30,477 bases of DNA. Source: an uncultured delta proteobacterium (GTDB taxonomy: Bacteria; RBG-13-61-14; DRUE01). This document shows, piece by piece, positions 13,734 to 25,579 of the stretch. How positions within the stretch are numbered: the first letter of the stretch is position 1; each line of letters opens with the position of its first letter. The DNA is taken from contig CAIYYW010000094.1 in NCBI GenBank assembly GCA_903930515.1, forward strand, positions 1 through 30,477, given 5' to 3'. A program made the translations under genes and the position numbers. The notes below the pieces were generated by a model. It searched no databases. It was not told where the DNA came from and saw nothing but the letters and a program-made list of their open reading frames with translations.

Positions 13734-13756
13734 ATTAGGGACAGCCACCTATTTAT
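13734..13756. repeat. Left inverted repeat of the RAYT element
   Basis: Perfect reverse complement of 14536-14558. It lies downstream of the transposase stop codon and immediately upstream of the -35 box of the GH29-like gene promoter. Confidence 0.8.
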
Positions 13757-13801
13757 GATACAGTTAAGGAAAAGCACAAAAGCAATTATACCGTTATTAA
13801 A

Positions 13802-14506
13802 TCAGGAGGGGCGGACCGATGATTGGGATGTTTTCGAGCTGCTTTTTCCGGGTCTGCCGACGGGCAAAGGCCGCAAGCGTTTTCCCAGCGAGATCTCGAT
13901 TTTGCTGAGAAAAGCGTCATTGCCGAGCGGTCGGCCGCGGCGGGTGTGGGAACGCAATGCGGTGATTTTGCCTGATTCTTCATTCCTTGACAGAAAGGCC
14001 TTCCATTCCGAGGGCGATAAAATTTCTTGCCATTGCTTCAGTTCCAAAAGACCGAGTGGATCTTTGCCGCTGATGTGCGCACGGGCGCTGGACCATTTAT
14101 ATTGCCAGGCCGGACTTGCCATTTTTGCGCGCATCGGGTTGCGCTCGATATATGCCATGGCCGCGAGCAGATGTTTTTCATCCAGGGCGCACGAATAGAA
14201 ACGGCTCTGCCAAAGGTGGCCGGTCCGGCCGTGGAGCCGGTTGATGTACTGGGTATAAACCCAGTTCGCCCGGCCAACTGCATTGGCCAGCGAATGCGGC
14301 TCGGCAGGAACCGCGATGAGATGGACATGGTTCCTCATCAGACAATAGCCGAGAATTTGCAGACCGTTTTTGCGCGACAGGTAATTCAGAATGGCCAGGT
14401 ACCGTGCGTAGTCGTCATCAACGAAGAAAACATCCTGCCGGTTGTTTCCGCGCTGGACGATATGATGCGCGCATCCGGGAATGACAATTCTCGCTACCCG
14501 AGGCAT
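13802..14506 (-). CDS. REP-associated tyrosine transposase (Y1_Tnp, IS200-like)
   Basis: 234 aa. The Y1 single-strand transposase signature is intact: PGCAHHIVQRGNNRQDVFF at the start, LGYCLMRNHVHLIAVP with the metal-binding HVH at residues 60-62, and VYTQYINRLHGRTGHLWQSRF with the candidate catalytic Tyr84 or Tyr87, followed by AYIERNPMRA. These enzymes nick and join single-stranded DNA at REP hairpins as a HUH nuclease. A minus-strand TATAAT lies at 14518-14513, only six bases from the ATG, and no Shine-Dalgarno is evident, so expression may be leaderless or weak. The C-terminus is rich in Arg, Lys and Ser. Confidence 0.92.
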   Translation of the reverse strand: MPRVARIVIPGCAHHIVQRGNNRQDVFFVDDDYARYLAILNYLSRKNGLQILGYCLMRNHVHLIAVPAEPHSLANAVGRANWVYTQYINRLHGRTGHLWQSRFYSCALDEKHLLAAMAYIERNPMRAKMASPAWQYKWSSARAHISGKDPLGLLELKQWQEILSPSEWKAFLSRNEESGKITALRSHTRRGRPLGNDAFLSKIEISLGKRLRPLPVGRPGKSSSKTSQSSVRPS

Positions 14507-14530
14507 GTTCCGATTATACTATAATTTGCC

Positions 14531-14583
14531 AAATAATAAATAGGTGGCTGTCCCTAATGGGGACAGCCACCTATTTATTATTT
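14531..14583. repeat. REP-like hairpin with perfect 24-bp arms
   Basis: Arms 14531-14554 and 14560-14583 are exact reverse complements with loop TAATG. Each arm contains the GGTGGCTGTCCC / GGGACAGCCACC core. It sits directly upstream of the transposase gene and is the likely substrate of the encoded enzyme. Confidence 0.85.
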
Positions 14584-22501: not shown

Positions 22502-22551
22502 CTGGATTGAGCAGGAGTTCTTATGAGAAGTAGTAAAGGGGGATGACCATT

Positions 22552-23388
22552 ATGATTGACAAGCGGCGTTTTGGCCTGAACCGGATCATCGCGCCTTCAT
22601 TGGGACTTGAAGGTTTCTTTGAATTCGCGGACTCCGTGGGCATCCGAAAGGTGGAGCTCCGCAACGACATTGGAAGCCGCAATGCCGTGGACGACCTTCA
22701 GCCCGCCGCCGCAGCGAAAATGGCCGCGGATATGGGCATTGAAATCATCTCTATCAATGCCCTGCAAAAATTCAACCTCTATTCGGTCCGGGAAAAGGCT
22801 ATGTCGGAGCTCTCGGCCCTGCTTGAACTGGCAAAGGCAATCGGCTGCCACGCCGTGGTCCTTTGCCCGAACAACGATCCCACCGATGCGCGCACCCCGG
22901 CACAGCGCGCCGCCGAGACCACCGATGCGCTTTCGGCGTTCGGCCCTCTTTTCACCAAAGCCGGCATCCTTGGGCTGATTGAGCCGCTCGGGTTCGCTAT
23001 CTCATCGCTCGCCTCGCTGGTCACGACCCAGGAATCCATACGCAAGTCTGGTTTCGCCTGTTATCGGATCGTGCACGATACCTTCCACCACTACATCGGG
23101 CCGGACGACCCAGCCGTTCTCGGCGGCGCTTACGATGTTTCCAATACCGGCCTGGTCCACATTTCAGGCGTTGAAAGCGACCTCCCCACCGCCGACTACC
23201 GTGACCAACACCGCGTCCTGGTCGGCCCGGCCGATCATATGAACAGCAAAGAGCAAATATTGCGTCTGGACCGGCTAGGCTTTGCAGGCGATTTCTCTTT
23301 TGAACCCTTCTCGCCCGCAATCCAGAAGCTGAGCCGGGACAAACTCGCGGACGCGCTCCGGCAAAGTATTGACTTCATCCGGTCGTGA
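22552..23388 (+). CDS. MocC/IolE-like TIM-barrel isomerase or dehydratase
   Basis: 278 aa from the ATG at 22552, nine bases after AAAGGGGG; the ATG at 22543 is too close to that site. The AP_endonuc_2 (xylose isomerase-like) barrel is clear: FGLNRIIAP, GIRKVELRNDIGSRN, ADMGIEIISINALQKFN, GCHAVVLCPNND, GLIEPLGFAISSL, RIVHDTFHHYIG, LVHISGV and DFSFEPFS. This matches MocC of the rhizobial rhizopine locus and related inosose-processing enzymes; metal ligands Glu (IEPLGF), Asp-His (VHDTFHH) and the final Glu (FEPF) are present. In context it probably acts on the keto-inositol made by the IolG-like enzyme; the exact reaction is inferred. Its 3' end is partly repeated twice downstream. Confidence 0.87.
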   Translation: MIDKRRFGLNRIIAPSLGLEGFFEFADSVGIRKVELRNDIGSRNAVDDLQPAAAAKMAADMGIEIISINALQKFNLYSVREKAMSELSALLELAKAIGCHAVVLCPNNDPTDARTPAQRAAETTDALSAFGPLFTKAGILGLIEPLGFAISSLASLVTTQESIRKSGFACYRIVHDTFHHYIGPDDPAVLGGAYDVSNTGLVHISGVESDLPTADYRDQHRVLVGPADHMNSKEQILRLDRLGFAGDFSFEPFSPAIQKLSRDKLADALRQSIDFIRS

Positions 23389-23395
23389 GGCGGCA
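23338..23395 (+). repeat. 58-bp direct repeat, first copy (3' end of mocC-like gene)
   Basis: This covers the last codons and stop of the mocC-like gene plus seven bases after it. It matches 23894-23951 at 54 of 58 positions. The hicB-hicA unit lies exactly between the two copies. Confidence 0.85.
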
Positions 23396-23409: not shown

Positions 23410-23437
23410 TTGACTTATTCAAGGGGTCGGCTATCCT
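23410..23437 (+). promoter_or_regulatory. Promoter of hicBA
   Basis: TTGACT (23410-23415, 5/6), 16-base spacer, TATCCT (23432-23437, 4/6), followed by AAAAGGA seven bases before the hicB ATG. It starts only 15 bp after the end of the direct repeat, so the promoter belongs to the inserted unit. Confidence 0.5.
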
Positions 23438-23458
23438 TATTTTTAAAAGGAATCGCGC

Positions 23459-23665
23459 ATGAAATATGATGTCTTCATAACCAAAGAGGGTGATTGGTTT
23501 ATCGCAGATGTGCCAGCTCTGCCCGGCTGCATGTCCCAGGGACGGACCGAAAAGGAGGTTCTGGCCAACATCCGAGATGCCATCCAGGGATACCTCGATG
23601 TCCTCAAGGAACAAAACCGCGAAGCGCCCAAGACCAAGCACCTAAAAGTAGCCGCGGGTGGATGA
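23459..23665 (+). CDS. hicB: HicB-like antitoxin
   Basis: 68 aa. The HicB fold is evident: MKYDVFITKEGDWFIADVPALPGCMSQGRTEKEVLANIRDAIQGYLDV, the partially degraded RNase H-like core of HicB antitoxins. No DNA-binding domain follows (only ~20 further residues), so this is the short form. It binds HicA and blocks its RNase activity. Antitoxin-first order, ATGA overlap with hicA and a private promoter show a complete two-gene module. It interrupts the region between the mocC-like and iolG-like genes. Confidence 0.9.
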   Translation: MKYDVFITKEGDWFIADVPALPGCMSQGRTEKEVLANIRDAIQGYLDVLKEQNREAPKTKHLKVAAGG

Positions 23666-23880
23666 AGCGGCTCGCTAATATCTCCGGCCATAAAGCTGTC
23701 AAGATCTTCTGCAAATTCGGTTATCAGGTCGCCCGCCGGACGGGAAGTCATATCATCCTCAAGCACCCCGAAAAGCCGCCCTTGGTCATCCCAGACCATA
23801 AAGAAGTCGCCCCGTCCCTGCTCCGAACCCAAATCCTCCGCGCCGGCCTCACCATCAAGGAATTCGTGGAACATAAATAA
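23662..23880 (+). CDS. hicA: HicA-like mRNA interferase toxin
   Basis: 72 aa starting at the ATG that overlaps the hicB stop (ATGA). It has the double-stranded RNA-binding-like HicA fold: NISGHKAVKIFCKFGYQVARRTGSHIILKHP with the catalytic histidine in GSH, then LVIPDHKEVAPSLLRTQILRAGLTIKEF. HicA cleaves mRNA to stop translation when not bound by HicB. The length is normal and no key residue is missing, so the toxin is probably active. Only 13 bp separate its stop codon from the second 58-bp repeat. Confidence 0.9.
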   Translation: MKRLANISGHKAVKIFCKFGYQVARRTGSHIILKHPEKPPLVIPDHKEVAPSLLRTQILRAGLTIKEFVEHK

Positions 23881-23893
23881 TCCCATACCCCGC

Positions 23894-23951
23894 GACAAAC
23901 TCGCGGACGCGGTCCGGCAAAGTATTGAATTCATCCTGGCGTGAGGCGGCA
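23894..23951 (+). repeat. 58-bp direct repeat, second copy
   Basis: A second copy of the mocC-like 3' end, with four substitutions, an intact stop codon (in the mocC frame it would end SIEFILA) and the same bases after the stop. It has no start codon and is not a gene by itself. Confidence 0.85.
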
Positions 23952-24000
23952 TCCCTAAGCCCGCTATTTCTTCAGCTTCAGATTCTATAGTTCCAAACAA

Positions 24001-24048
24001 ATTGCAGCAAGTATCTTAGTATCTTGATACTAAGATACTTGCTGCAAT
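24001..24048. repeat. Perfect 23-bp inverted repeat with a two-base loop
   Basis: Arms 24001-24023 and 24026-24048 are exact reverse complements around TT. Each arm also holds a direct repeat of AGTATCTT. No terminator-type T-run follows. It lies between the two mocC fragments and has no gene beside it. Confidence 0.9.
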
Positions 24049-24104
24049 CGGTCAGGACCAAAAGGATTTGAGCGGAAGGGTTTAGCGAGAGCGAGGCGCC
24101 GGGC

Positions 24105-24227
24105 CCTGGTCGGCCCGGCCGATCGTATGAACAGCAAAGAGCAAATCCTGCGTCTGGACCGGCTAGGGTTTGCGGGAGATTTCTCTTTTGAACCCTTCTC
24201 GCCCGCGATCCAAAAGCTGACCCGGGA
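24105..24227 (+). pseudogene. Second mocC-like fragment
   Basis: About 123 bp matching 23217-23339 with some nine substitutions (about 93% identity). It keeps the reading frame of MNSKEQILRLDRLGF..DFSFEPFSPAIQKL but lacks the upstream three quarters of the gene and the last ~16 codons. At CCGGGA it runs directly into a transposase remnant. Confidence 0.88.
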
Positions 24228-24413
24228 AAGAATTCCATTGGAGCGATCATCCGGGGCTTTAAGGGAGCCTGCACGAAACGGATCAATCAGATTTGGGGCA
24301 CGCGGGCAAAGGCGGTGTGGCACCGAAATTATTATGAGCGCGTTGTGAGGACGGAAGAGCTGGAGCGGATTCAAAGATATATCAAAGAAAATCCAAGGAA
24401 ATGGAATAAATAA
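24225..24413 (+). pseudogene. C-terminal remnant of a second RAYT-type transposase
   Basis: In a frame different from the mocC fragment, 62 codons read GKNSIGAIIRGFKGACTKRI, then NQIWGTRAKAVWHRNYYERV and EELERIQRYIKENPRKWNK before TAA. This is the typical C-terminus of REP-associated Y1 transposases (pattern WQRNYYEHxIRxEEELxRIxxYIxxNP). The N-terminal HUH domain is missing, so it cannot be active. It belongs to a subgroup different from the intact gene at 13802-14506, and a REP-like cluster follows it. Confidence 0.85.
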
Positions 24414-24423
24414 TTTTATGGGA

Positions 24424-24465
24424 GGATTACCAATCCGCCCGTACGGGCGCATTGGTCATGCGCCC
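24424..24465. repeat. REP-like palindrome cluster
   Basis: Three stems in a row: GGATT-ACC-AATCC (24424-24436), the perfect palindrome CGCCCGTACGGGCG (24436-24449) and GGGCGCA-TTGGTCA-TGCGCCC (24445-24465). It directly follows the RAYT remnant, as expected for the end of such an element. Confidence 0.75.
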
Positions 24466-24474
24466 ATTCCTTTG

Positions 24475-24503: not shown

Positions 24504-24553
24504 GCTGGCGGGAAAGAGGAGAAGAGCAGTCTAAGACTGTGAGGAGGTTTCTA

Positions 24554-25579
24554 ATGAAAGCGCCGGTTAACATTGGCATCATCGGGGTTGGCAGGATCGG
24601 CAAGATCCATGCGGAAAATATAGTTTCTTCAATTTCCCAGGGCCGACTCAAAGCGGTCGCCGACCTTAATTTGACGCCGGAAATAGAAGGTTGGGCGAAG
24701 AACCTTGGCGTTGCAACCATCGTGAAGGAGCCGGCTACTCTCCTCGCGGACAAGGATATTCAGGCTGTTCTCATTTGCTCTTCCACAGACACCCACGCGG
24801 ACTTGGTGGTTGCGGCGGCCAAGGCCGGCAAGCATATTTTCTGCGAAAAGCCTGTGGACCTCACGGTGGCCAAGGTGGCCGCGGCCCTGGATGCTGTGAA
24901 GAAGGCAGGGGTCAAGCTGCAGGTGGGATTCAATCGGCGCTTTGACCATAACTTCCGGCGCGTGCGCGAACTGGTAGAGTCCGGCGCGGTCGGCACTCCC
25001 CATCTGATCAAGATCAGTTCACGCGACCCCGCGCCGCCGCCCGCCAAGTACAGCGCGGTCTCAGGCGGGATCTTCCTTGATATGACCATCCACGATTTTG
25101 ATATGGCCCGTTTCCAGGCCGGGAGCGAGGTTGTTGAAGTCTATGCCGCGGGCGCCGTTCTCATTGATGAAGCGATCGGGAAGGCCGGTGATGTGGACAC
25201 GGCAATTGTTACTCTGCGTTTCTTGAATGGCGCCCTGGGCGTGATTGACAACTCGCGCAAGGCGGCATACGGCTACGACCAGCGCGTGGAAGTATTCGGA
25301 TCCAAGGGCGCGGCCGCGGCTGAGAACGACGCGCCCAGCACGGTCAAGCTCTCCAACGAGTCCGGGGTGATCGGCGACAAGCCCCTCTACTTCTTCCTTG
25401 AGCGATACCAGGGGTCCTTTATCTATGAAATGCGCGCGTTCCTGGATGCGGTCATTGCAGGAAAGCCGACCCTGGTCACCGGCGAGGATGGGCTTCAGGA
25501 CCTCCGCGTCGGCCTGGCCGCGAAGCTGTCCCTCGCCGAACGGCGCCCGGTCAAGCTCTCGGAGATTCCTCTCAAGTAA
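24554..25579 (+). CDS. iolG: Inositol 2-dehydrogenase-like oxidoreductase (Gfo/Idh/MocA)
   Basis: 341 aa from the ATG at 24554, with GGAGG six bases upstream. The N-terminal Rossmann fold reads NIGIIGVGRIGKIHAENI, followed by FCEKPVDL with the catalytic Lys, GFNRRFDHNF, and the MocA-fold segment GGIFLDMTIHDFDMARF with the Asp/His pair. IDNSRKAAYGYDQRVEVFGSKG is typical of IolG. The enzyme oxidises myo-inositol to scyllo-inosose with NAD. Substrate range in this family varies (scyllo-inositol, chiro-inositol), so the exact cyclitol is inferred. It follows the broken region 23396-24480 and is read in the same direction as the transporter genes. Confidence 0.9.
   Translation: MKAPVNIGIIGVGRIGKIHAENIVSSISQGRLKAVADLNLTPEIEGWAKNLGVATIVKEPATLLADKDIQAVLICSSTDTHADLVVAAAKAGKHIFCEKPVDLTVAKVAAALDAVKKAGVKLQVGFNRRFDHNFRRVRELVESGAVGTPHLIKISSRDPAPPPAKYSAVSGGIFLDMTIHDFDMARFQAGSEVVEVYAAGAVLIDEAIGKAGDVDTAIVTLRFLNGALGVIDNSRKAAYGYDQRVEVFGSKGAAAAENDAPSTVKLSNESGVIGDKPLYFFLERYQGSFIYEMRAFLDAVIAGKPTLVTGEDGLQDLRVGLAAKLSLAERRPVKLSEIPLK

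Follow-up and report, generated by a model that had tools for sequence, protein, structure and literature searches.

Organization of the mocC locus

The window analysed here is a stretch of 30,477 nucleotides (contig CAIYYW010000094.1) from an uncultured delta proteobacterium. It contains an intact gene for a mocC-like sugar phosphate isomerase/epimerase, whose nearest homologues, at no more than 66% amino acid identity, are found in metagenome-assembled genomes of spirochaetes. Between this gene and a Gfo/Idh/MocA oxidoreductase gene, which serves as a syntenic anchor with a sister species of the same genus, lie two displaced pieces of mocC (B' and A'), a hairpin-bearing flank, a REP-associated tyrosine transposase (RAYT) gene reduced to its 3' half, and a palindrome (Table 1). 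Also present, between mocC and B', is a hicB-hicA toxin-antitoxin (TA) pair (23459-23880), which had been missed in an earlier reading of the sequence alone, as had a perfect 23-bp inverted repeat (24001-24048) located between the two displaced pieces.

Table 1. Features of the mocC locus, in window coordinates
Feature	Position	Strand	Evidence
mocC-like sugar phosphate isomerase/epimerase (AP_endonuc_2), intact	22543..23388	+	PF01261, E 5e-21
Segment A, within mocC, source of A'	23217..23339	+	Direct-repeat match
Segment B, mocC 3' end including the stop codon plus 7 nt, upstream repeat of the bracket	23334..23395	+	Direct-repeat match
hicB antitoxin	23459..23665	+	HicB_lk_antitox, PF15919, E 4e-8
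hicA toxin	23662..23880	+	PF07927, E 1e-13
Segment B', mocC 3' end copied to a displaced position immediately ahead of the native flank	23890..23951	+	Direct-repeat match
Native flank	23955..24057	+	Common with sister species (89% over 23955-24043)
Perfect 23-bp inverted repeat, 2-nt loop, inside the native flank between B' and A'	24001-24048		
Segment A', copy of mocC 23217-23339	24105..24227	+	Direct-repeat match
3' half of RAYT gene	24228..24413	+	PF01797, NF047646
Imperfect 50-nt palindrome, REP-like, end of inserted block	24418..24467	.	
Gfo/Idh/MocA oxidoreductase, syntenic anchor	24539..25579	+	Sister species (86%)

Both displaced pieces of mocC described in the sequence-only reading are real, each being recovered independently as a direct repeat. 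A' matches A over 129 nt (23211-23339 and 24099-24227; 91.5% identity, E 6e-47) and B' matches B over 62 nt (23334-23395 and 23890-23951; 91.9% identity, E 1e-18). As the first 6 nt of the 129-nt repeat are marginal, we set the start of A' at about 24105. No other direct repeat nearly as long is present in the rest of the 30 kb window, and neither the window's genome nor the sister species yielded a further piece of mocC. The swapped order, with B' first, A' second and both in the direction of mocC, is likewise borne out. In mocC coordinates the two pieces meet in a six-base overlap, CCGGGA (23334-23339), which reads CCGCGA in B', and they do have a common break site. Two such ends would lie no more than 5 nt apart by chance in about 1% of cases if both were free to fall anywhere in mocC, and in about 8% if they were confined to a 130-nt stretch near its end. 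We hence regard the common breakpoint as suggestive but not strong; it is probably either a coincidence or an unexplained weak spot.

A hicBA pair bracketed by two copies of the mocC end

The hicB and hicA genes are adjacent, overlap by 4 nt and have Pfam matches above the cut-off, and thus display the gene arrangement of a type II hicBA system. B' starts 9 nt past the hicA stop codon, and B and B' together constitute a 62-nt direct repeat that brackets the TA pair. A homologous hicBA pair (82%) occurs in the sister species in another context, with the match confined to 23410-23880; on account of both this different location and the limited extent of the homology we term hicBA a cassette.

Recurrence of gene-end copies around TA pairs

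We checked all HicA and ParE/RelE loci of three genomes, namely the window's genome (G000), the sister species (G001) and an order-level relative (G002), for a direct repeat bracketing the toxin gene. In the window's genome a 50-nt copy of the recG 3' end (98% identity) lies 7 nt past the toxin stop codon of a hicBA pair, and an 80-nt copy of the 3' end of an Fe-S protein gene (2 mismatches) lies a few nucleotides past that of a relBE pair. The sister species has a copy of the 3' part of DAHP synthase behind the toxin of a hicBA pair, while in the order-level relative both a Memo gene and a membrane-protein gene are followed by hicBA and a copy of their own 3' parts. In the clear cases the copied 3' part of the upstream gene begins 6-32 nt past the toxin stop codon, and across cases the bracketing repeats measure 25-154 nt.

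Bracketing repeats with a score of at least 20 were found at 10 of 37 TA loci, as compared with 3 of 136 control positions drawn from the same genomes (Fisher p 1.2e-5), in a gene-free test that was designed after the pattern had been seen, that includes the window as one of its 37 loci, and whose cases include one locus touching a contig end (L136) and one dispersed repeat (L116). No such repeat occurs at any of 30 response-regulator loci. Among 116 genomes from many families, a bracketing repeat was present at 16 of 67 HicA loci versus 2 of 436 positions in other bacterial DNA, with a control that is not matched by genome, two of the loci lying in one array and several of the repeats being dispersed sequences rather than gene ends. 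Bracketing is not universal among TA loci, since the hicAB locus of E. coli K-12 has no bracketing repeat.

An empty site is available for the DAHP synthase case. In the window's genome the gene has only one 3' end and leads, without hicBA, to the same regulator gene, whereas its counterpart in the sister species is followed by hicBA, a second DAHP synthase end and then the regulator gene. At recG, the copied gene end may be younger than the hicB gene it accompanies, since hicB already stands behind recG in the sister species.

Several further observations concern individual TA loci. Behind recG in the sister species (L292, contig C240) hicB is retained and hicA is replaced by a gene that by eye resembles a DUF262-type protein. 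Loci L116 and L058, from the two sister species compared here, have a common gene end (...PTLRIPEI(I/T)VGGEL) ahead of hicBA pairs that differ, which suggests a preferred site there. One hicBA operon of the window's genome (L124, contig C206), which is the same hicBA as that behind DAHP synthase in the sister species, contains an internal tandem duplication of 239 nt (98%) that covers the 3' part of hicB and the 5' part of hicA. Lastly, a 119-nt exact direct repeat surrounds hicBA at the start of contig C101 of the window's genome (L136/L259), and may be either biological or an effect of assembly.

An array of different hicBA pairs behind a urocanase gene

In a distant genome (G005, contig 15, L270 2000-5050), the 3' end of a urocanase gene recurs five times downstream of the gene, with the copies separated by four different hicBA pairs and one unrelated gene. 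Pairwise identities among the four HicA proteins are only 19-43%. That unlike cassettes share one spacer argues for repeated entry at one gene end, as opposed to tandem amplification. This organization is reminiscent of integron cassette arrays, in which different small gene cassettes also stand in a row with a repeated sequence between them, but the spacer here is the 3' end of a host gene rather than an attC site. In the 9 kb examined at this array, none of the open reading frames stood out as an integrase.

We tentatively suggest, at somewhat less than even odds, that in many bacteria TA pairs travel as cassettes without an integrase, which enter host genes at the 3' end, re-create that end and leave a copy of it behind each cassette. 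Repeated entry at one gene might then build arrays resembling those of integrons, with the gene end as the spacer between different TA pairs.

The A' block and its flanks

Strong homology to the sister species stops near 24057 and returns near 24470, which gives approximate borders for a block containing A', the RAYT piece and the palindrome (24418-24467). None of these three is present in the sister species, where the hairpin flank is immediately followed by the same Gfo/Idh gene. On the basis of this adjacency we take the hairpin to be the native flank of the Gfo/Idh gene and A' with the RAYT piece to have been added behind it. Similar hairpins are dispersed in the sister species (contigs C759, C15 and C565).

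The junction of A' with a RAYT remnant, as first described from the sequence, holds: a Y1 transposase fragment starts at 24228, right after A'. This piece matches only positions 62-121 of the 121 of PF01797 (E 5.5e-5) and 71-133 of NF047646 (E 1e-6), and thus corresponds to the C-terminal half alone rather than to a complete Y1 HUH transposase domain. Among the Y1 loci taken from the compared genomes its nearest relatives are only 26-34% identical to it.

We also considered cutting at CCGGGA by a RAYT-type enzyme, for which a check had been proposed in the sequence-only reading, and found no support for it: the RAYT gene is a fragment with distant relatives, the + strand of the window contains the hexamer 33 times, and the other TA-bracketing copies begin at other sequences.

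Divergence of the copies

Over their 123 positions A and A' show 9 differences, 7 of which are synonymous (p 0.001 against the neutral expectation). Between B and B' there are 5 differences in 55 coding positions, 4 of them being non-synonymous. When estimated separately, the identities of A' and B' to mocC are alike (91 and 92%), with too few differences to tell two ages apart. As the A/A' differences are mostly synonymous, A' seems to be derived from a once functional, diverged mocC allele.

Across eight bracketed pairs there are 28 synonymous and 24 non-synonymous differences, where neutrality would make roughly a fifth to a quarter of them synonymous. The excess hints at a functional allelic state of some of the paired ends before they met, and fits a cassette arriving on the DNA of a related strain accompanied by a gene end of its own. 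The copies at recG and at the Fe-S protein gene, the two youngest cases, are nearly identical, as a true duplication would give. Both routes may occur.

Two insertions as the likely origin of the locus

We favour, at a probability of about 0.6, an origin of the displaced pieces in two events rather than as one permuted copy, with B' being the gene-end copy that brackets an inserted hicBA pair and A' belonging to a separate insertion with a broken transposase. In the first event a hicBA cassette, without transposase or integrase, would have inserted at the 3' end of mocC, leaving two mocC ends, namely B on the intact gene and B' behind hicA, before the native downstream flank. Homology may have anchored the incoming DNA at one end, the other end being joined with little or none. 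Once in place, the presumably addictive toxin would disfavour RecA-dependent deletion between the direct repeats B and B'. In a second and presumably independent event, A', the RAYT 3' half and the palindrome would have been placed about 150 nt further on, between the hairpin flank and the promoter of the Gfo/Idh gene. The swapped order would then follow from the positions of the two insertions, with B' before the native hairpin and A' with the RAYT piece behind it, and the odd permutation at mocC would be replaced by two insertions.

Several observations weigh against this reconstruction. First, the empty state of the mocC site is not seen: a search among relatives gave only one other genome of the same genus, the assembly of which lacks mocC; B' is absent there from the 58 nt upstream of the hairpin flank, where the contig ends. 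Second, the breakpoint common to both pieces fits two independent events only as a coincidence of the 1-8% order given above. Third, simple duplication followed by neutral decay does not predict the synonymous excess between A and A'. The possibly younger age of the recG copy relative to its hicB, the unbracketed hicAB of E. coli K-12 and the after-the-fact design of the enrichment test also count against it.

This synonymous excess is better accommodated by the foremost alternative, which we judge to be distinctly less probable. A functional second mocC allele or paralogue could have stood downstream, hicBA entering one copy and a RAYT element along with deletions destroying the other; tandem copies would also give A' and B' equal ages. 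Nevertheless, a single downstream copy would leave A' before B', so that the observed order needs two extra copies or unequal exchange, and there is the lack of any other mocC piece in the window's genome and the sister species.

The sequence-only reading had offered either a circularly permuted copy or two partial copies cut at one hotspot. For the former, a unit of A', B' and hairpin would have undergone either tandem duplication or circular excision, followed by a single opening at CCGGGA to give B'-hairpin-A', which would account for both the common breakpoint and the similar divergence of the two pieces. We consider this unlikely. Comparison with the sister species, where the hairpin stands natively beside the Gfo/Idh gene without A' or the RAYT piece, indicates that the hairpin was not captured; a captured B'-hairpin-A' unit would be foreign to the flank and would not sit in native order, and a single permuted unit is rejected on this synteny. 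Moreover, B' is accounted for by the recurrent bracketing of TA pairs, whereas hicBA and the RAYT piece would still need a separate explanation. Of the latter proposal, the part concerning separate copies fits better, given the same hairpin-Gfo/Idh adjacency and the association of B' with hicBA, while its hotspot is neither favoured nor contradicted by two ends that both use CCGGGA at the chance level stated.

Slightly less likely still is a single replication-based event with template switches, running from A through B and hicBA, back to B, through the hairpin, back to A and into the RAYT piece. It accounts for all junctions and for the use of CCGGGA twice, but requires five switches, does not predict the synonymous bias between A and A', and sits poorly with the bracketing of hicBA elsewhere, which comes without A'-like pieces. 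An assembly artefact from mixed strains in the metagenome is very improbable: although the window is one entire contig of a draft in 401 contigs, there is no long shared stretch for an assembler to join at the hicA/B', hairpin/A' and A'/RAYT junctions, and the same architecture recurs in other genomes.

Relation to known modes of insertion

To our knowledge, the movement of small TA pairs between chromosomal sites without a transposase is poorly known. The closest parallel is insertion with long target duplication, which has been described for restriction-modification genes (summarised in PMC3874152, PMC3031569 and PMC1643837). In both situations an addiction-type module without a transposase of its own is bracketed by direct repeats of target sequence of variable length, typically of tens to about 100 bp, a range that includes the 62-nt, 92% identical bracket of B and B'; in both, an empty single-copy site is found in a relative, as seen here for DAHP synthase. 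The original papers on this mode of insertion are Nobusato 2000 and Furuta 2010. The present cases differ in that the module is a hicBA or relBE toxin-antitoxin pair, in that the clearest of them have the 3' end of the upstream gene copied closely behind the toxin, and in that repeated insertion yields arrays. As the module at mocC is HicB and HicA by Pfam, and not a restriction-modification system, we state that this locus works like an insertion with long target duplication, not that it is one of them. In the literature searched, which comprised the three summarising papers but neither Nobusato 2000 and Furuta 2010 nor Ramisetty and Santhosh 2016 (on the horizontal transfer of chromosomal TA systems), we found long target duplication stated for restriction-modification genes only and not for TA pairs. 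The recurrent scar, i.e. the end of the neighbouring gene copied directly behind the toxin, provides a readable footprint of TA insertion that can be surveyed in closed genomes. It also links TA pairs to a mode proposed for restriction-modification genes, and it is this extension to TA pairs that is of interest.

A comparable route may be offered by homology-facilitated illegitimate recombination, in which homology on one side alone can suffice for foreign DNA to be added and for sequence of the recipient to become duplicated. Merodiploidy made by transformation can have the same outcome (PMC3784515). Both processes resemble the route that we infer for the hicBA insertion.

The A' block shows a likeness to RAYT/REP elements, in that A' runs into a RAYT-type Y1 transposase gene reduced to its C-terminal half, with a palindrome behind it. 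It differs from them in that half of the gene is missing and there is no sign of hairpin or site recognition, or of mocC cutting, by the enzyme. The window also contains a second, longer RAYT-like gene (13802-14506), which gave no match to the RAYT piece in a protein search. This gene is followed by a 53-nt near-perfect palindrome (14531-14583), and a matching inverted half of it lies at 13734-13759, the whole arrangement spanning 13734-14583.
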